Positions 38,553 through 46,710 of a DNA stretch of 64,000 nucleotides are shown piece after piece. The translations under genes and the position numbers were made by a program. Within the stretch, counting starts at the first letter, position 1. Every line of letters starts with the position of its first letter. The DNA is from Kaistia geumhonensis (lineage in GTDB: Bacteria; Pseudomonadota; Alphaproteobacteria; Rhizobiales; Kaistiaceae). The DNA lies in NCBI RefSeq assembly GCF_030815145.1, contig NZ_JAUSWJ010000001.1, positions 4,454,501-4,518,500 of the forward strand, in the 5' to 3' direction. The notes under the pieces were generated by a model. That model was given only the letters and a program-made list of their open reading frames with translations, was not told the origin of the DNA and searched no databases.

Positions 38553-39218
38553 ATGAGGATCGAACAGCCCAAAGGCGTCCGAGGCAGCCTCAAATGGATC
38601 CAGCGCTCGGTTGCCGAGCGCTGGCCGACTCTCGAGGCCCCCATCCTCGCGGCGACCGGCGGCGCCGCGCTGCGGTGGCGTTCGCCGCTCGCCGCCGACT
38701 CCTTCGCCGAATATCGCGACGAGGCGGTGCTCGGCCTCGTCGGCGCGCTGCACCTCGCCGAATCGCTGCATGCCTTCTGGCCGGCGCGTGGACCGCAATG
38801 GGATGCGCTGGCCACGACCGATACCGGCGGCATCGTCCTCGTCGAAGCCAAGGCGCATGTGAGCGAGCTGCTGTCGCCCGGAACGGCCGCCGGGGATGCG
38901 TCGCGAAAGCGCATCGACGAAACGCTCGGCGCGCTGGCCGAGCGGCTCAACGCCTCGCCACGCCGCGCCGACTGGGCCGATCATTTCTACCAGCTCGCGA
39001 ACCGGCTCGCCTTTCTCGACTTCCTGCGCCGGAATGGCGCCCCTGCATGGCTGGTGCTCGTCGATTTCATCGGCGATTTGGAAATGGCCGGGCCCAGCGT
39101 TCCGGAAACCTGGGACGCCGCCTACCAGGTTGCCTGGCATGTGATGGGGCTGCCGCGGCGCCATGCGCTGACGCCGCACATCCTGCATGTGCGGCCGGAT
39201 GTCAGGCCCCATGCCTGA
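38553..39218 (+). CDS. PD-(D/E)XK nuclease-like hypothetical protein
   Basis: A 221-residue protein found as a stand-alone hypothetical in many bacteria. Its centre has the sequence order Glu (EYRDEAVLGL, about residue 53), Asp (QWDALATTDTGG, about 84) and VLVEAKAH (about 93-100), which reads like the E...D...ExK core of restriction-like nucleases. No DNA-binding domain or methylase is attached, and no defence partner is next to it. It ends five bases from the convergent hydrolase gene. The nuclease assignment is from motif reading only. Confidence 0.65.
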   Translation: MRIEQPKGVRGSLKWIQRSVAERWPTLEAPILAATGGAALRWRSPLAADSFAEYRDEAVLGLVGALHLAESLHAFWPARGPQWDALATTDTGGIVLVEAKAHVSELLSPGTAAGDASRKRIDETLGALAERLNASPRRADWADHFYQLANRLAFLDFLRRNGAPAWLVLVDFIGDLEMAGPSVPETWDAAYQVAWHVMGLPRRHALTPHILHVRPDVRPHA

Positions 39219-39236
39219 TCGCCTCAGGCGGTCAGG
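39214..39236. terminator. Hairpin over convergent stop codons
   Basis: A 10 bp stem (CCTGATCGCC / GGCGGTCAGG, one G-T pair) whose three-base loop is the TGA stop of the minus-strand hydrolase. It spans the ends of both convergent genes. There is no T-tract. Confidence 0.45.
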
Positions 39237-40009
39237 AAATCGAGAACAAGCCTGTTGAACGCGTCCTGCTGCTCGACATTGGCGAGGTGGGCGGCCTTTC
39301 GGATGACCTCGAGGCGGGCCCCCTCGATCGTCGCGACCCATTCGCGCGTCTTGGCGACCGGAGTGCCCGGGTCCGAATCGCCGCAGATGGCGAGCACGGG
39401 GACCGGAATGAGCTCGAGGTCGTCGCGCAGGTCCATCTCCGCCAGCGCCTCGCAGCAGGCGGCATAGCCCTCGTTGGAGCAGCCGAGCAGCATGGCGCGG
39501 ATTCGCGCTACCGTCTCCGGCTGGTGCGTGCGGAAGTCCTCGGTGAACCAGCGGCCGATCACGGCGTCGACGAGGGCGCCGATGCCCTCGTTGCGCGCGG
39601 TCTTGGCGCGCCCTTCCCACATCTCGCGCGGGGCGAGATGCGGCGATGACGAGACGATCACGAGCTTCTCGACATGTTCCGGGCAGTTGATGCCGAGCCA
39701 TGCGGCGGTCATGCCGCCCTTCGAAAGTCCCACGACATGGGCCGAGTCGATGTCGAAAGCCTCGAGCACGCCGCGCGCGTCGCGGCCGAGCCGGTCGATG
39801 GTGTAGGGCGCCTCGGAGGGGGCGGACCTGCCATGGCCGCGATCATCGAAGCGCAGCACGCGGAACTGCTCGGAGAAGAAGGCGGCCTGGCCGTCCCACA
39901 TCGTGTGGTCGGCCCCGAGTGCGTTGAGAAAGAGAAGCGGCGGCTTGCCGTTGTCCGGACCGACCTCGACATGGAGCTCGACCCCGTCGTCCATAGCGAT
40001 GCGTGGCAT
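39224..40009 (-). CDS. Alpha/beta hydrolase, 3-oxoadipate enol-lactonase-like
   Basis: A 261-residue alpha/beta hydrolase close to PcaD-type enol-lactonases. The oxyanion region is LNALGADHTMW (about residue 28), RFDDRGHGRS (about 52) precedes the nucleophile elbow GLSKGGM (Ser about residue 95), the acid lies in ICGDSDPGTP (about 212) and the His in AAHLANVEQQ (about 240). No other protocatechuate genes are present in the window, so the PcaD reaction is unproven. Confidence 0.82.
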   Translation of the reverse strand: MPRIAMDDGVELHVEVGPDNGKPPLLFLNALGADHTMWDGQAAFFSEQFRVLRFDDRGHGRSAPSEAPYTIDRLGRDARGVLEAFDIDSAHVVGLSKGGMTAAWLGINCPEHVEKLVIVSSSPHLAPREMWEGRAKTARNEGIGALVDAVIGRWFTEDFRTHQPETVARIRAMLLGCSNEGYAACCEALAEMDLRDDLELIPVPVLAICGDSDPGTPVAKTREWVATIEGARLEVIRKAAHLANVEQQDAFNRLVLDFLTA

Positions 40010-40324
40010 TACCCTGTCCCTGCCGCAGCCCCTGATCCCTTCCGGCTCTTCGCCTGGCCGCCGATGATCGCATCATGAGCCCGCCGCCCGTCAACGTCTA
40101 TAACGCTTCGACCAGCCATTCGGATGGGGATACCGCCGCGCGCCGCCCTCGCATGGGCGTTTGGATGTCTGTGCGGCAAAGCCTGGCAGCACTCAGCCGA
40201 CTTTGCTGCTAATCTATTGATTCAACGGCACAATCGTCGATATCGGCGTTGAAATCAAGAGTCGCCTGCGAGACGATTTTAGCGTCCCGCGCGGACTCGC
40301 GAGAACCGACCAGACGAGGTGCCC
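40010..40324. other. Divergent intergenic region, 315 bases
   Basis: Lies between the start of the hydrolase gene (minus) and the usg-like gene (plus), so it should carry two promoters. The only structure I see is an imperfect inverted repeat, TTGATTCAACG at 40217 and CGTTGAAATCAA ending at 40258. No ORF in it looks real. Confidence 0.5.
40217..40258. promoter_or_regulatory. Imperfect inverted repeat upstream of the usg-like gene
   Basis: Arms TTGATTCAACG and CGTTGAAATCAA (one extra A) are separated by 19 bases in the otherwise quiet divergent region. It could be a regulator site or a weak hairpin; it is not followed by a T-run. Confidence 0.35.
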
Positions 40325-40591
40325 ATGCCGTCATCGCTGTTGCGTCAGTTGTCCGGATATGGCCTGACCACCGCCCATATCCTCTACCGCCTTCCCGATC
40401 ATCCGGCCCTGCTGCAAACATTCGTCTGGCAGGAATATGACCTGGCGCCGGACTTTCCCGAGCTCAACCGGTTTCTCGATTTCTGGAAGCGCGAGATCGA
40501 GGGTCCGCTGCACTCGGTGAAGGTGGCGCATCACGGCGTCATCAGCGCAGCGGAGATGCGCGTCGCCTCGACGCTCTATGCCTTGAACTGA
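40325..40591 (+). CDS. Usg-family protein
   Basis: An 88-residue protein with the conserved YGLTTAHILYRLPDHP (about 12-27) and WQEYDLAPDFPELNRFLDFW (about 35-54) blocks of the alphaproteobacterial Usg-type proteins. The name comes from an ORF near a tRNA-modification/aspartate-semialdehyde locus in other bacteria; the biochemical role is unknown. The ATG at 40325 has ACGAGG five bases upstream. Confidence 0.85.
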   Translation: MPSSLLRQLSGYGLTTAHILYRLPDHPALLQTFVWQEYDLAPDFPELNRFLDFWKREIEGPLHSVKVAHHGVISAAEMRVASTLYALN

Positions 40592-40600
40592 CGCTGACGA

Positions 40601-41344
40601 TCAGTCCCGACCGTAAGGCGGGGCGGGGATCGCCTGGTGCGCCGCGCGCAACGCGGCGGACCAGCGCTCCCGAAGGTCGGCGAAATAGGCGTCGTTGCGG
40701 TCGATGCGGTGCGAGATGTCGACCGCTATGGCGTCGCGGCGAATCGTGCAGACATCGACGGGCATGCCCACGCCGAGATTGGAGCGGATCGTCGAATCCA
40801 TCGAGACGAGGCCGAGCTTCAGTGCCTCGTCGAGCCCCGTCTCGCTCGTCACGGCGCGGTCGAGGATCGGCTTGCCGTATTTGTGCTCGCCGATCTGGAG
40901 ATAGGGCGTATCCGCGGTCGCCTCGATGAAGTTGCCCGCCGAATAGACCATGAAGAGGCGCAGCCTTCCGCCCGCGACCTGGCCGCCCAGCAGCATGGTC
41001 ACGTCGAAGCTCGCCGCCTGCTGCTCCATGGACTTGCCATGGATGCGGTAGACCTCGCGGATCGCCCGGCCGACGAACTGCGCCACCTTGAACATGCTCG
41101 GCAGGCTGTAGATCGTCTCGATCTCGCCGCTCTCGGGATTCTTGATCCCTTCGCTCAGGAGGTTCAGCACCGACTGGCTGACAGCGAGGTTTCCCGCCGT
41201 CGCGATGGCGATGGCGCGGTCGCCGTCCTTCTGGAAGAGATGCAGCTTGCGGAAGGTCGCGATGTTGTCGAGGCCCGCATTGGTGCGCGTGTCGGCGATC
41301 ATCACCAACCCGTCCCGCACAAGAATTCCAACGCAGTAAGTCAT
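40601..41344 (-). CDS. Anbu-type proteasome-like peptidase (ancestral beta subunit)
   Basis: Ntn-hydrolase of 247 residues related to proteasome beta subunits and HslV. It begins MTYCVGILVRDGLVMIADTR, so removal of Met1 would expose Thr2 as the nucleophile, as in other Anbu proteins, and TRTNAGLDNIATFRKLHLF (about 19-37) is the family block with the Lys. Anbu forms ring or lock-washer oligomers, but no substrate is known. It lies at the end of a four-gene minus-strand set with ATP-grasp, alpha-E and transglutaminase-fold genes, the classic Anbu neighbourhood, which suggests that it degrades or matures a peptide made by the ATP-grasp enzyme (inference). The gap to the transglutaminase gene is 83 bases. 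Confidence 0.93.
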   Translation of the reverse strand: MTYCVGILVRDGLVMIADTRTNAGLDNIATFRKLHLFQKDGDRAIAIATAGNLAVSQSVLNLLSEGIKNPESGEIETIYSLPSMFKVAQFVGRAIREVYRIHGKSMEQQAASFDVTMLLGGQVAGGRLRLFMVYSAGNFIEATADTPYLQIGEHKYGKPILDRAVTSETGLDEALKLGLVSMDSTIRSNLGVGMPVDVCTIRRDAIAVDISHRIDRNDAYFADLRERWSAALRAAHQAIPAPPYGRD

Positions 41345-41427
41345 GACCGCCGTCCGTTCCGCCAGCGGCGGATCATCGGGGCTCCTGCTTCGAGTCGCAA
41401 GCGCGGAGCGGAAACATCCACGCCTGT

Positions 41428-42246
41428 TTACGCCTGCTTAACCGGTCTCGCCTCGCTGATGCGGATGGCCACCTTCGGCACGGCGCTCCAGTCGCCATAG
41501 GCGGCGCCACGCACCGGCGCCGCTCCCACGCGGTCGAGGCCGATCGCGAGGCGGACATAGGCGTCGGTCGGGCAGATATTGCAGGACGCGTCGAATCCGA
41601 TCCAGCCGACGCCCTCGATGAACGCCTCGGCCCAGCCATGCTCGGTGTGATCCGGCTCCTTCGAATCGGGCCGGAAGAGATATCCGCTGGCATAGCGGGA
41701 CGGGATGCCGAGGTGACGCGCCGCGGCGATGAAGACATGGGCGAGCGCCCGCGCGTCGCCCTTCCTGCCCGCGAAGGTGGCGATGGCGCGGTCGTCCTCG
41801 ACGTCGCCGAGCTCCATCGCATCATGAAGCCCGTCCATCAGCGCATGCAGGGTCGAGAGACGATCGGGCGGCGAGGCGGCGTCTATTTCGGCGGCGAAGG
41901 ACCGGATCGCATGATCGGATTCGGTGAGCGAGGTGTCGCGCAGGAAGACGGGAACCGGAAAGCGCTCCGACTGGCCGCGGACCATGCCGGCCATGTCGTG
42001 CGTTTCCACTTCGCCGAGCGCGGTGATCGCGAGGCCGTCGAGCTTGCCGTCGGTGTTGAAGGACTGGACGATGTTGCCGAACGGGTCGAGCGCGCTCGAC
42101 AGGCGGCAGTCATGGTCGACCTCGATGCGCCAGTCGACGACGAACTGGCCGTCATGGCCGCGCGGCGTCAGCCGCAGGGTCTGGATGGCGCCGTTGGCGG
42201 GCGGGTCGAAGGCGTAGACGATCTCGTGGACGATCCTGAGGCGCAT
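41428..42246 (-). CDS. Transglutaminase-fold protein, catalytic Cys replaced by Ala
   Basis: A 272-residue protein with the bacterial transglutaminase N-terminal beta domain (about residues 1-80, MRLRIVHEIVYAF) and the papain-like core (about 150-250). The core has GDARALAHVFIAAARHLGIP (about 163-182), HGWAEAF with the catalytic His, and GFDASCNICPTDAYVRLAIG with the catalytic Asp. In active homologues the first block reads G-x-C-x-D-x-A-H; here the Cys position (codon 165, 41752-41754) is GCG, Ala. His and Asp are kept. It may be a pseudoenzyme that binds peptides rather than cleaves them. Start 15 bases after the alpha-E stop. Confidence 0.88.
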   Translation of the reverse strand: MRLRIVHEIVYAFDPPANGAIQTLRLTPRGHDGQFVVDWRIEVDHDCRLSSALDPFGNIVQSFNTDGKLDGLAITALGEVETHDMAGMVRGQSERFPVPVFLRDTSLTESDHAIRSFAAEIDAASPPDRLSTLHALMDGLHDAMELGDVEDDRAIATFAGRKGDARALAHVFIAAARHLGIPSRYASGYLFRPDSKEPDHTEHGWAEAFIEGVGWIGFDASCNICPTDAYVRLAIGLDRVGAAPVRGAAYGDWSAVPKVAIRISEARPVKQA

Positions 42247-42261
42247 GGCGGCGAGGGTTCC

Positions 42262-43200
42262 TCAGGCGAGATACTGGTCGGTGATCGCCTGGCCGAGGCG
42301 GCTGTTCTCGCCGATGAACTCGGTGAGGAACTCGTGCAAGCCGCCCTGGAAGACGTCCTCGAGCGTCGCGTTCTGCAGGCGGTTGCGCGTCGAGCGGGCC
42401 ACGCGCTGCGCAGGCCCCTGGCGGCCATAGGCGAGCGAAAGCTCGTCGAGGAACTCGCAGATGCGCCCGTAGCAGGCCGAGAGCGAGCGCGGCAGCTGTT
42501 CGTTGAGCACGAGCAGGTCGGCGACCAGCCAGGGCTTCACGCTCTCGCGATAGACCCAGTGATAGGCGGTGTTGGCCGAGACCGAGCGCAGGATCGACGA
42601 CCACTGGAAGAAGTCGAGGCCGCCGCCGACGCTCTCCTGCTCGGGCAGCAACAGGTGATACTTCACGTCGAGAATGCGGGCCGTGTTGTCGGCGCGCTCG
42701 ATGAACGAGCCGAGCCCCGAGAAGAAATAGGCGTCGTTGCGCAGCATCGTGCGATAGGCCGAGCCGTCGAAGCGCAGCGAGGCTTCCTTCACATAGGTGA
42801 GGAAGGCGTTGAGGCGCACGCGGTCGCCGAGGCGGTTGAAGTCGCGCAGGCCGAGCCAGGCGCCGTTGATCGCCTCCCACATCTCCGAGGTCAGCGCGGT
42901 GCGGACCGTCCGCGCGTTGACGCGCGCCCGCTCGAGGCAGGAGCGGATCGAGGAGGGGTTGTCGGCGGAGAAGGCGAGGAAGTCGACGACGCTCTCGCCC
43001 GTCGCTTCGCGGCCGAGCGACTTGAAGAGGCCGAGCGTGCCCGTCGCCGCAACGGCCGATTCCCACTCGTTCGATTCGCCGGCATAGGCGATCGGCATGG
43101 CGGCGAGGCGGTTGGCGGCGTCGAGGATGCGCGCGGTGTTCTCGGCGCGCTCCACATAGCGGGCGAGCCAGAAGAGATTGTCGGCGGTACGGCTCAGCAC
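42262..43200 (-). CDS. Alpha-E domain protein
   Basis: A 312-residue all-helical protein of the alpha-E superfamily (DUF403), starting MLSRTADNLFWLARYVERAE with a second, similar FIERADNTARILD block near residue 155, which suggests an internal duplication. The domain is of unknown biochemical function and almost always accompanies the circularly permuted ATP-grasp and transglutaminase genes. It lies between them here, 141 bases after the ATP-grasp gene and 15 bases before the transglutaminase-fold gene. Confidence 0.9.
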   Translation of the reverse strand: MLSRTADNLFWLARYVERAENTARILDAANRLAAMPIAYAGESNEWESAVAATGTLGLFKSLGREATGESVVDFLAFSADNPSSIRSCLERARVNARTVRTALTSEMWEAINGAWLGLRDFNRLGDRVRLNAFLTYVKEASLRFDGSAYRTMLRNDAYFFSGLGSFIERADNTARILDVKYHLLLPEQESVGGGLDFFQWSSILRSVSANTAYHWVYRESVKPWLVADLLVLNEQLPRSLSACYGRICEFLDELSLAYGRQGPAQRVARSTRNRLQNATLEDVFQGGLHEFLTEFIGENSRLGQAITDQYLA

Positions 43201-43341
43201 GGCGTGGAACTCCGCAAGCTGGAGCCCTTGCCCCGGCCCTCTACCGCAAAGGGGAGAGGGGGCGCCGGCTCCGAAGATCGATGACAGCCGAAGGACCGGA
43301 ATGCACGGCCGGCTGCGAGGGTGGTCGGGGTGAGCGAGCCG
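43201..43341 (-). other. Gap inside the ATP-grasp/alpha-E/Anbu gene set
   Basis: A 141-base interval between the ATP-grasp stop and the alpha-E start, unusual in an otherwise tight set. It has a CCCC...GGGG-type inverted repeat (CCCCGGCCCTCTACC... GGGGAGAGGGGG region, 43230-43265). This may allow an internal promoter or a processing/attenuation site; no ORF is supported. Confidence 0.35.
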
Positions 43342-44760
43342 CTACGCATCGAGCACCCATGTGTCCTTGGTGCCGCCGCCCTGGCTTGAATTGACCACCA
43401 GCGAGCCGGCCTTGAGCGCGACGCGGGTGAGCCCGCCCGGCACGATGCGGACCTTGTCGCCACCCGTCAGCACGAAGGGCCGGAGATCGACATGGCGCGG
43501 CGCGACGCCGGAATCGACGAAGGTCGGCGAGGTGGACAGCGCCAGTGTCGGCTGGGCGATGAAGTCGTCAGGGTTGGCGGCGAGCTTGGCGGCGAACTCG
43601 GCGATGGTCTTCTTGTCGGCGGTCGGACCGATCAGCATGCCGTAGCCGCCCGATCCGGCCACCTCCTTGACCACCATCTCGGGCAGGTGATCGAGCACAT
43701 ATTTGAGCGCGTCGGGCTCGCGGCAGCGCCAGGTCGGCACGTTCTGGAGCAGCGGCTCCTCGCCGAGATAGAAGCGGACGATCTCGGGCATGTAGGAATA
43801 GACCGCCTTGTCGTCGGCGACTCCCGTCCCCACGGCGTTGGAGAGCGTGATGTTGCCGGCGCGGTAGGCGCTCATCAGGCCGGGCACGCCGAGCGCGGAA
43901 TCCGGGCGGAAGGTCAGCGGGTCGAGGAAATCGTCGTCGAGGCGGCGATAGAGCACGTCGACCCGCTTCGGTCCCTCGGTGGTGCGCATGTAGACGACAT
44001 TGTCGCGCACCAGCAGGTCACGGCCCTCGACGAGCTCGATGCCGAGCTTGTCGGCGAGGAACGAGTGTTCGTAGAAGGCGCTGTTGTAGGGACCGGGCGT
44101 CAGGAGCGCGACGGTCGGGTCGGAGGACGCCGAGCGTGGCGCCACTGATTTCAGCGTCGCGAGAAGGGCGTCCGGATAGTTCTCGACCGGCGCGATCCGC
44201 TGCTCGGCGAAGAGATCCGGGAAGAGGCGCATCATCACCTCCCGGTTCTCCAGCATGTAGGAGACGCCGGACGGCGTGCGCGCATTGTCCTCGAGCACGT
44301 AGAACGTGTCGGGATCGACGCGGACGATGTCGATGCCGGCGATCATCACATAGATGTCGTGCGCGAGCTTCAGGCCCGCCATCTCCGGCCGGTAGTAGGG
44401 GTTGCGATAGATGAGGTCTTCCGGCACGTGGCCGGCACGCAGGATCTCGCCCTTCGAATAGATGTCGGCGAGGAAGGCGTTCAGCGCCTTGACGCGCTGC
44501 TCCAGCCCGCGCGCGAGCACCGCCCATTCCTTCTTGGTCAGGATGCGCGGGATGATGTCGAACGGGATCAGCCGCTCCTCGCCCGCCTCGTCGCCGTAGA
44601 CGTTGAAGGTGATGCCGATGCGGCGGAACAGAAGTTCCGCCTCGGCACGGCGCGTTGTGAGAAGATCGGGAGGTGTCGACTCCAGCCAACGTTTGAGGAC
44701 TTCGTAACCGGGACGGCAGCTGTCGCCGCTCGACCCCATCTCATCGAAGGCTACGACCAT
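43342..44760 (-). CDS. Circularly permuted ATP-grasp protein (DUF404/407)
   Basis: A 472-residue ATP-grasp enzyme with the permuted type-2 layout. Its N-terminal block includes FNVYGDEAGEERLIPFDIIP (about residues 51-70). Next come RNPYYRPEMAGL, the ATP-binding ENARTPSGVSYMLENREVM stretch (about 167-185), RVDVLYRRLDDDFLDPL (about 270) and the SNAVGTGVADDKAVYSYMPE loop (about 310). Enzymes of this class are predicted COOH-NH2 ligases that make peptides from amino acids. It is the first gene of the set with alpha-E, transglutaminase-fold and Anbu genes. The substrate is unknown. Confidence 0.92.
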   Translation of the reverse strand: MVVAFDEMGSSGDSCRPGYEVLKRWLESTPPDLLTTRRAEAELLFRRIGITFNVYGDEAGEERLIPFDIIPRILTKKEWAVLARGLEQRVKALNAFLADIYSKGEILRAGHVPEDLIYRNPYYRPEMAGLKLAHDIYVMIAGIDIVRVDPDTFYVLEDNARTPSGVSYMLENREVMMRLFPDLFAEQRIAPVENYPDALLATLKSVAPRSASSDPTVALLTPGPYNSAFYEHSFLADKLGIELVEGRDLLVRDNVVYMRTTEGPKRVDVLYRRLDDDFLDPLTFRPDSALGVPGLMSAYRAGNITLSNAVGTGVADDKAVYSYMPEIVRFYLGEEPLLQNVPTWRCREPDALKYVLDHLPEMVVKEVAGSGGYGMLIGPTADKKTIAEFAAKLAANPDDFIAQPTLALSTSPTFVDSGVAPRHVDLRPFVLTGGDKVRIVPGGLTRVALKAGSLVVNSSQGGGTKDTWVLDA

Positions 44761-45084
44761 GCCCGCAGTGACTCCCCTTCCGCTGTCGATGGATGTACCG
44801 GCAAGCGGCGTGCCAGTCTCGTCGACCGCGATCCCCCTGTTTCGCTCCCGCGAAACGCTTCTCCACTATTGCACACAACGCGCTCAGTCTTGGCTAGTGC
44901 CAATCGACCGTCGTGGGTGGCGCAGATGACGCGGCCGAGAAGGCAGCAGACTGGCGCGAAATGAGGCAATGGTCGCGGGCCGCCCCGTCCATGATTGCCT
45001 CCACCGGAGCTTCGGGTCCATGATGGCCGCGGGATCGCCGCGCCGCCGCAGAGAGGCCGGCGACCAGGGAATGGAGGAGTTTGC

Positions 45085-45978
45085 ATGAGCGAGTTCGATG
45101 CGCGGCGGGACGCGGTTCCGCACGAGAGCGGTGTGATCGTCGTCGATTACCGGGACCCCAACGCGCCGGCGCTGTTCACCGAGTCGCTGCGCCGGACGGG
45201 CTTCGGCGTGCTCACCAATCATCCGATCCCCCAGCCGCTGGTCGAGCAGATCTACAAGGAATGGCTCGGTTTCTTCGACGGCGAGGACAAGCACAAATAT
45301 CTCGTCGGCGAGAAGCATGACGGCTATTTCCCGCCCTCGCAGGCCGAGACCGCGAAGACCGGCAAGAAGCGCGACCTCAAGGAATATTATCACCTCTACT
45401 CCTGGGGCCGTTACCCCGACGAGGTGTCCGACGCCGCGCGGCGCTATTTCGACATCGCCAAGGGCCTCGCCGACGAACTGCTGCAATGGGTCGACTACAA
45501 TTCGCCGGAAGAGGTGCGGGCCAAGTTCTCGGTGCCGCTGCCGGAGATGATGAAGGACAGCGAGGGGACGCTGTTCCGCATCCTCCGCTATCCACCGCTG
45601 ACCGGCGACGAGGATCCGGACGCGCTGCGCGCCGCCGCGCATGAGGACATCAACCTCCTGACCATCCTGCCGGCCGCCAACGAGCGCGGCCTGCAACTTC
45701 TGAACGGGGAGGGCGAATGGGTCGACGTGCCGTTCGATTTCGGCATGCTGGTCATCAATGTCGGCGACATGCTCCAGGAAGCGTCGGGCGGCTATTACAG
45801 CTCGACGACGCACCGCGTGATCAACCCGATCGGCGAGTCGCGCTTCCGCTCGCGCGTGTCGATCCCGCTGTTCCTGCAGCCGCGCCCGGATGTCGTTCTC
45901 TCCGACCGCTACACGGCCGGCAGCTATCTCGGCGAACGGCTTCGCGAACTCGCCCGCAACGACAAGAAGGGCATGTGA
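45085..45978 (+). CDS. 2-oxoglutarate/Fe(II)-dependent oxygenase, IPNS-like
   Basis: A 297-residue double-stranded beta-helix dioxygenase. Fe ligands are His and Asp in AAHEDINLLTIL (about 190) and the distal His in STTHRVINP (about 246); the 2OG-binding Arg and Ser are in RSRVSIPLF (about 258-266). The ATG at 45085 is preceded by GGAGG at proper spacing. It belongs to the isopenicillin N synthase superfamily, whose bacterial members often act on small molecules; the substrate is unknown. Monocistronic and divergent from the ATP-grasp gene. Confidence 0.9.
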   Translation: MSEFDARRDAVPHESGVIVVDYRDPNAPALFTESLRRTGFGVLTNHPIPQPLVEQIYKEWLGFFDGEDKHKYLVGEKHDGYFPPSQAETAKTGKKRDLKEYYHLYSWGRYPDEVSDAARRYFDIAKGLADELLQWVDYNSPEEVRAKFSVPLPEMMKDSEGTLFRILRYPPLTGDEDPDALRAAAHEDINLLTILPAANERGLQLLNGEGEWVDVPFDFGMLVINVGDMLQEASGGYYSSTTHRVINPIGESRFRSRVSIPLFLQPRPDVVLSDRYTAGSYLGERLRELARNDKKGM

Positions 45979-45985
45979 TCCCGGC

Positions 45986-46012
45986 AGGCCGGCCGCGACG
46001 CCTGGCCGGCCT
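45986..46012. terminator. Hairpin between convergent oxygenase and radC
   Basis: A perfect 9 bp stem (AGGCCGGCC / GGCCGGCCT) with a nine-base loop, placed between two convergent stop codons. No T-tract on either side, so it is a probable but not certain bidirectional terminator. Confidence 0.5.
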
Positions 46013-46710
46013 CAGATCAGCTTGAGACCCTTGAAGCTCACATTGCCGTGGCGGCCGACGATGATGTGGTCGTGCACGGCGATGCCGAGCGGCGCGGCGA
46101 CGTCGACGATCGTCTTCGTCATCTGGATGTCGGCGCGCGAGGGCGTCGGGTCGCCGGAGGGGTGATTGTGCACGAGCACGATCGCCGTCGCCGAAAGCTC
46201 CAGCGCGCGCTTCACCACCTCGCGCGGATAGACGGGCGTGTGGTCGACGGTGCCGGTCTGCTGCACCTCGTCGGCGATGAGGGCGTTCTTCTTGTCGAGG
46301 AAGAGGATGCGGAACTGCTCCTTCTCCTCATAGGCCATGGCGACGCGGCAATAGTCGATCACCGCGCTCCAGGAGCCGAGCAGCGGCCGTTCGCGCGCCG
46401 CGCCGCGCGCCTGCCGCTTCGCGGCCGCATGAACGATCTTGAGATGCAGCGCCACCGAGGCGCCCACGCCCGGCACCTCCATGAGCCGCGCTTCGGGCGC
46501 GGCGAGGACCTCGGTGAAGGTGCCGAAGCGGGTGATCAGCGCCTTGGCGATCGGCTTCGTGTCGCGCCGCGGCACGGCCGCGAAGAGGATCAGTTCAAGG
46601 AGTTCGTAATCGGCCAGCCCGTCGCCGCCATTCTCGCGAAAGCGCCCCTTGAGGCGCTCGCGATGGCCGACGAAGTGCGGAACGTCGGATCCGTCCCCGA
46701 AGCCGGTCAT
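46012..46710 (-). CDS. radC: RadC family JAB-domain protein
   Basis: A 232-residue protein with an N-terminal helix-hairpin-helix region (about residues 20-105, [17 protein letters not shown] to [11 protein letters not shown]). The C-terminal JAB1/MPN metal domain carries [16 protein letters not shown] (about 180-195). RadC is widespread, but its link to DNA repair has been questioned. The start at 46710 overlaps the map stop by ATGA. Confidence 0.93.

Follow-up and report, generated by a model that had tools for sequence, protein, structure and literature searches.

A cysteine-less transglutaminase in the Anbu operon of Kaistia geumhonensis and a reciprocally degraded second cluster: a possible two-part amide-bond system of nitrogen starvation

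The Anbu operon of Kaistia geumhonensis, four consecutive minus-strand genes at positions 40,601 to 44,760 of a 64,000-nucleotide stretch of its genome (the window; contig NZ_JAUSWJ010000001.1, 4,454,501 to 4,518,500), encodes a circularly permuted ATP-grasp ligase, an alpha-E all-helical protein, a transglutaminase (TG) and the proteasome-like peptidase Anbu. A sequence-only reading of the window had called this gene set complete and said that it stands alone. We found that the operon TG is without its catalytic Cys, and that the host genome has a second cluster of the same families in which the TGs are intact, so that neither description holds. Judged from their sequences, the two gene sets are damaged in opposite senses, since the operon has lost its TG and kept an intact ligase, and the second cluster has intact TGs and a degraded ligase. 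We put at about even chances a two-part amide-bond system of nitrogen starvation, in which the window would supply the ligase and the peptidase and an active TG would work in trans. Genomes and loci are referred to below by our own labels (G000 is the host genome), and published papers are cited from excerpts.

The operon TG (41,428 to 42,246, minus strand; an open reading frame (ORF) of 272 amino acids) matches Bact_transglu_N (5.7e-18) and Transglut_core (1.1e-15). The usual motif GVC[QR]D reads GDARA in this protein, and in place of the Cys-His-Asp triad we found Ala165-His203-Asp219, with the His and the Asp retained. By its sequence, the operon TG is a predicted pseudoenzyme in which the Cys nucleophile has been replaced. 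The Cys is missing, with Ala, Pro or Gly instead, in 14 of the 15 operons from the genus (g1) and its sister (g9), namely 13 orthologous g1 operons and one from g9. The exception, G021, is a genus member that keeps the Cys; its assembly is fragmented, with 6% contamination and a divergent operon, and is possibly contaminated, and we scored it as Cys-bearing. Among the 168 family or order genomes with ATP-grasp, we could read the operon TG of 151, and 39 of the 151 were without the Cys, the His being kept in 34 of these and the Asp in all 39. The TG was not read in G005, G050, G056, G098, G103, G109, G114, G127, G143, G162, G167, G172, G189, G197, G208, G211 and G218, where it was not fetched, cut or absent (in G109, G189 and G197 a large TG stands there instead); the TG of G138, cut by a contig end, was scored as Cys-bearing. 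The 67 TGs of named genomes comprised 57 with Cys-His-Asp, one that is cut and nine in which the Cys is lost, including those of Bosea, Devosia, Uliginosibacterium and Burkholderia stagnalis. The pseudo-TG gene is maintained by purifying selection. In eight hand-chosen pairs, the ratio of nonsynonymous to synonymous substitution rates (dN/dS) was 0.055-0.21 for pseudo-TGs (six within-genus pairs), which indicates that the gene is being kept, and 0.19 and 0.36 for Cys-bearing TGs (two pairs).

The second circularly permuted ATP-grasp locus lies at about 2,408,050-2,414,780 of G000:C1, 2.08 Mb from the window operon, and encodes, in order, a large TG-DUF2126 protein, an 835-amino-acid ATP-grasp-alphaE fusion and a small TG of 293 amino acids; Pfam labels DUF2126 a "putative amidoligase". 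This order was found in 50 of 52 stretches, the other two being one cut at a contig end and G056, which is without the large TG. The TGs of this cluster keep Cys-His-Asp in every copy read (small TG, 52/52; large TG, 23/23). The ATP-grasp of the window (43,342 to 44,760, minus strand; ORF of 472 amino acids), which stands alone as a protein, matches Pfam CP_ATPgrasp_2 (PF14403/PF04174; E = 1.2e-167) and the solved structure 3n6x (E = 1.4e-201). The reported activity of the Yersinia bercovieri ATP-grasp is phosphate release from ATP only (PMC6376114). Residues E157, D158, N159, R161, K318, K365, G371-G374 (GGYG), H423 and D425 were invariant in 100 of 100 stand-alone ATP-grasps; by the ATP-grasp fold they would be the catalytic residues that handle ATP and Mg, and with all of them intact the window protein is a predicted live ligase. 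The fused ATP-grasps, in window numbering, kept E157, N159, R161, K318, K365, Y373, H423 and D425 in 0 of 53 copies and G371 in one of 53, and the fused domain is, on these losses, a predicted pseudo-ligase attached to alpha-E. Six named betaproteobacterial fusions have a consensus Lys near the K365 position, in an alignment judged by eye. The system is said to have been predicted originally by Iyer et al. in 2009, a paper that we know via citing papers. Among the literature matches listed, none dealt with Cys loss in the Anbu-operon TG or with a degraded ATP-grasp-alphaE fusion, on which Iyer et al. may say more.

We then compared the loss of the TG Cys with the presence of the fusion, which was assigned by hand among the matches listed (the list for the order ends near E = 1e-77); all fusion counts have this scope. 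The fusion is present in at least 87 of 199 genomes of the order and in at least 19 of 28 of the host family. Of those 87, 86 also carry the stand-alone ligase, the exception being G114, which is 84% complete. Among the matches listed, 38 of 89 fusion-bearing genomes had lost the TG Cys, compared with one of 62 without the fusion (Fisher p = 7e-10, ignoring descent). Only one Cys-less genome, G157, had no listed fusion; its completeness is 78%, and the fusion is found in two other genomes of its genus, G047 and G092. On an ATP-grasp tree of 92 rows (92 of the 151 genomes, midpoint-rooted) there were at least seven separate Cys losses in the order, all on fusion-bearing lineages, with a branch-length-weighted probability of 0.0009-0.0044 for this placement; the parsimony minimum is six changes, or seven losses if there is no regain.

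These counts bear on one alternative, a self-contained peptide-tag system in which the four operon proteins would attach a peptide or protein modification and take it off again, and the TG fold would act without its Cys, as a binder or via another residue. We consider this unlikely, because among genomes without a listed fusion the Cys was kept in 61 of 62, and TG activity thus seems to be needed unless the second cluster is present. Purifying selection on the pseudo-TG speaks in its favor, as does a Cys at residue 225, past the catalytic Asp, in 37 of 39 pseudo-TGs, compared with 71 of 112 live TGs (Ser occupies this position in 10 of 13 other family operons). The integrity of the four-gene set is a further argument for it. 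In 25 of 27 stretches of the host family the four genes share a strand and stand in the same order, the exceptions being G001, with about 6.4 kb between the TG and Anbu, and the G021 stretch, which is without ATP-grasp. The order is also kept in 52 of 74 ATP-grasp-bearing stretches from other families of the order; elsewhere, Anbu is sometimes divergent (L091, L126, L135, L138) or distant (G060, G202). Since the gene order recurs in the family and in the order, the arrangement is not due to chance, and the recurrence of this set in bacteria, as first proposed, was supported.

The survey of the order (n = 199 genomes) gave matches to Anbu in 128, ATP-grasp in 147, alpha-E in 147 and TG in 148; in the host family, Anbu is present in 27 of 28 genomes. 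The co-occurrence of the genes expected from the sequence-only reading held in one direction. Nearly every Anbu genome has ATP-grasp (127/128, which again fits a self-contained system), and the remaining Anbu match (G183) is a fragment of 31 residues, but 20 of the 147 genomes with an ATP-grasp match had no Anbu match. These 20 include G114, where the single match probably stems from the fusion, and G050, where the contig ends within the operon. Because Anbu implies ATP-grasp and the reverse does not hold, ATP-grasp and alpha-E look like a core to which Anbu is an attachment.

In several lineages the two clusters are physically joined. G109 and G189 carry ATP-grasp, alpha-E, large TG, fusion and small TG as one string, and G197 shows the same row as far as its truncated stretch extends. 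The clusters also form one gene row in Sphaerotilus and in a Burkholderiales metagenome-assembled genome (MAG), in Burkholderia stagnalis, where the row includes a Cys-less TG, and, as far as the fusion, in Pelomonas; in two further loci among 80 named ones they lie within about 10 kb of each other. This linkage supports a single system. It is hard to fit to an alternative in which the clusters are paralogous pathways with separate products and redundancy has made the TG step dispensable, with the Cys loss as a by-product. Such redundancy would explain why the loss is almost confined to genomes with second TGs (fusion among the matches listed), the 2.08 Mb that separate the clusters in the host are in keeping with it, and in seven of the eight pairs none of the other three operon genes has a dN/dS as high as that of the TG. 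However, the pseudo-TG gene is not decaying at the dN/dS given above, and in the second cluster the damage runs the other way, with the fused ligase degraded; we give this alternative a low probability.

We next turned to the regulation of the operon. A sigma54-type -24/-12 promoter, TGGCACG-CCGC-TTGCC, lies at 44,800 to 44,815 on the minus strand, 55 bases ahead of the ATP-grasp start, and is the only site in the window that scores at least 11/12. The pattern alone is weak, because a window scan that allowed one mismatch on the 11 fixed positions gave three matches compared with 1.24 in shuffled sequence, and it is the conservation of the site that carries the evidence. A score of at least 10 was found in 14 of 14 genus and sister loci (control windows, 3/1158). 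Of 12 loci from the remaining members of the family, 11 reached 9 (control, 42/912) and four reached 10 (6/912), and among named loci 32 of 79 reached 10 (87/10426); the scanned sets overlap in taxa. Both rpoN and ntrC are present in the host genome, so that a -24/-12 site at a plausible distance, its conservation in relatives and the gene for sigma54 are found together. Sigma54 control as a universal property of the order was considered and rejected, 10 of 74 loci of other families scoring at least 10. Upstream of the promoter, at 44,868 to 44,904 on the minus strand, a conserved block, ATTGGCACTAGCCAAGACTGAGCGCGTTGTGTGCAAT, is a candidate activator site; across 14 of 14 aligned loci its invariant letters are.T.....CT..CCAA...TG..C...T..T.TGCAAT. 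The block is unlike what we take to be an NtrC site, and its core, CTAGCCAAG, was absent from the second-cluster stretch and from the other four loci of the genome with an exact sigma54 match.

Genome-wide there are five exact matches to the promoter, and three to the reversed pattern. Besides the window site, two of the five precede Guanidine-I riboswitches with transporter genes, one precedes a pyroglutamyl peptidase gene, and the fifth precedes a sodium:dicarboxylate symporter of the DctA kind (Pfam SDF), which a histidine kinase adjoins and which has an NtrC-like regulator 2 kb off. At the two riboswitch loci, G000:C1:674895 (L353) and 3373476 (L355), the riboswitch follows the exact promoter directly and precedes the transporter genes, an order that stacks guanidine sensing on sigma54 control. 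The second cluster of the host has a 10/12 site at -72. Upstream of the large TG, a score of at least 10/12 was seen only in the host genome and G007, two of the 23 genomes scanned (two further rows of that scan repeat G109 and G189), and a promoter type common to both clusters in general was therefore rejected.

Anbu was already known to be under nitrogen control, and the conserved promoter described here extends what is known. Pseudomonas putida PP_2685-2688 is induced in nitrogen limitation and is likely NtrC-controlled (PMC7801951), the Burkholderia cenocepacia cluster I35_5080-83 is under NtrC/sigma54 (PMC5491218), and COG3484 (proteasome-type protease) belongs to the predicted targets of sigma54 for which enrichment in alpha-, beta- and gammaproteobacteria is reported (PMC12316311). 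Such regulation (PMC7801951, PMC5491218), together with the sigma54-type promoter of the window operon, would also suit bulk proteolysis in nitrogen starvation, with Anbu as a general peptidase and the other three proteins as activators or substrate selectors. We regard this as very improbable, since in the excerpts of PMC6376114 the standard proteasome substrates tried gave no peptidase activity and the operon is without an AAA+ protein, and since ATP-grasp occurs without an Anbu match in the 20 genomes mentioned above.

The two-part system that we favor would work as follows. When nitrogen is limiting, transcription would be initiated at 44,800 to 44,815 by sigma54 RNA polymerase together with an enhancer-binding protein, of which NtrC is the most likely, and the four genes would be transcribed as one unit. 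The operon would supply the live ATP-grasp ligase, with alpha-E as its partner, and Anbu as the hydrolase. The pseudo-TG would probably serve as a substrate-binding or docking part, and the second cluster would contribute live TG and, with DUF2126, another predicted ligase domain. The ligase would activate a carboxylate with ATP and join it to an amine, the Cys transglutaminase of the second cluster would transfer or trim the product, and Anbu would hydrolyse it and return the amino nitrogen. The residue losses, the co-occurrence, the joined clusters and the promoter motif are read from sequence, and from them we infer the joint working of the clusters, the reactions and the role of NtrC. The fuller picture, a split machine of reciprocal pseudoenzymes, both clusters behind sigma54-type sites in this genome, which jointly makes and recycles an amide-linked compound in nitrogen starvation, we put forward tentatively, at somewhat less than even chances.

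Several observations weigh against this picture. The Cys is retained in 51 of 89 fusion-bearing genomes (fusion among the matches listed), and an independent-pairs test, with four usable pairs, had no power and gave no significance, so that the association rests on loss counting. The Cys at position 225 may be a displaced nucleophile in the pseudo-TGs, as far as their sequences tell. The fused ATP-grasp is not wholly degenerate, as it retains D158 in 46 of 53 copies and a Gly at 372 in seven of 53, and the structure model of the fused protein, built from a six-row alignment, had a predicted local distance difference test (pLDDT) value of 57, too poor for use. In other families of the order only the 10 of 74 ATP-grasp upstream regions mentioned above score at least 10 (control, 40/4596). 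In the first of the three strains tabulated for P. putida, PP_2685 (Anbu) rose only 1.12-fold, compared with 11- to 15-fold for its three neighbours (PMC7801951), and the Y. bercovieri operon proteins formed no stable complex, according to the excerpts of PMC6376114.

Structures of Anbu have been solved and its substrate is not established; the sequence-only reading had said that no substrate was established, in agreement with the excerpts of PMC6376114 and PMC5666114. If the second cluster is required, studies of the four proteins alone missed essential parts, and these missing parts could explain the absent complex and the absent peptidase activity of the operon proteins of the related system. 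The possible missing partners are the DUF2126 transglutaminase, the pseudo-ATP-grasp-alphaE fusion and the small transglutaminase, with nitrogen limitation as the condition, and the operon TG would then have to be treated as a scaffold.

The remaining features of the operon agree with its first description. The coordinates of the four genes and the gaps of 141, 15 and 83 bases between them match the ORF list, and the gene identities were borne out by Pfam and, for ATP-grasp and Anbu, by solved structures. The alpha-E protein (42,262 to 43,200, minus strand; ORF of 312 amino acids with a GTG start; Pfam Alpha-E PF04168, E = 3.4e-95) gave an AlphaFold2 model with a mean pLDDT of 90.0. A fold search of this model against the PDB returned no match at E<=0.001, and a search for a solved relative returned none at E<=1. 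The ER-N-AR-LD motif occurs twice in the protein, as ERAENTARILDA (residues 17-28) and ERADNTARILDV (residues 168-179), and this repeat suggests, at the sequence level, an internal duplication. Anbu, a proteasome-like N-terminal nucleophile hydrolase (40,601 to 41,344, minus strand; ORF of 247 amino acids; Pfam Proteasome, 4e-08), matches the solved Anbu 5loy (E = 9.5e-81) as well as 5nyj, 5nyf, 5lox and 5nyw, all distinct in sequence; Thr1, Asp17 and Lys32 were found in 86 of 86 copies, including that of the window. Transcription as a single unit is plausible. Within 40,200-45,200 there was no sigma70-like promoter, and within the gaps no terminator-like site, both counts being at chance level, and an Rfam scan of 39,000-46,500 gave no match. 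The 141-base gap between ATP-grasp and alpha-E (43,201-43,341) contains a GC-rich palindrome (CCCTCTCCCC..); the length of this gap is 18 to 147 bases across 13 genus stretches. A Usg-like gene at 40,319-40,591 converges on the 3' end of the operon and is present in 11 of 13 genus stretches. A 2-oxoglutarate-Fe(II) oxygenase gene lies beside each cluster of the host genome (window 45,085-45,978; L057:12903-14093) and was rejected as part of the system; the two oxygenases are 28% identical, and the first was found, among family stretches, only in the host and five other genomes. In L340, a Nitrosomonadales MAG, one ATP-grasp/alpha-E pair is flanked by two Anbu genes, followed by a large transglutaminase.

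With ATP-grasp, alpha-E, TG and Anbu in order on one strand, the window gene set is what other authors describe as the Anbu operon (PMC6376114, PMC5666114). It shares with that operon the four families, their order, the intact Anbu triad and the intact ATP-grasp residues. It differs, as far as the excerpts of those papers go, in that the TG nucleophile has been lost in the genus (bar one odd genome) and in the presence of a reciprocal second cluster. The P. putida PP_2685-2688 (PMC7801951) and B. cenocepacia I35_5080-83 (PMC5491218) clusters have the same annotated families and NtrC/sigma54 control, and in the table for B. cenocepacia a large transglutaminase adjoins DUF404/407 and DUF403 (PMC5491218). 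Unlike in those systems, the host here belongs to the Alphaproteobacteria, the clusters are apart, and control is predicted from promoter sequence. The rlo operon of Pseudomonas aeruginosa, with the inactive transglutaminase RloB, the ATP-grasp RloC and the retropepsin RloA, is a precedent for the way such a system may work, in that an inactive transglutaminase is retained beside an ATP-grasp and a protease (PMC12239564). Its ATP-grasp and protease are of other kinds and its transglutaminase is membrane-bound (PMC12239564); it represents a separate system family.

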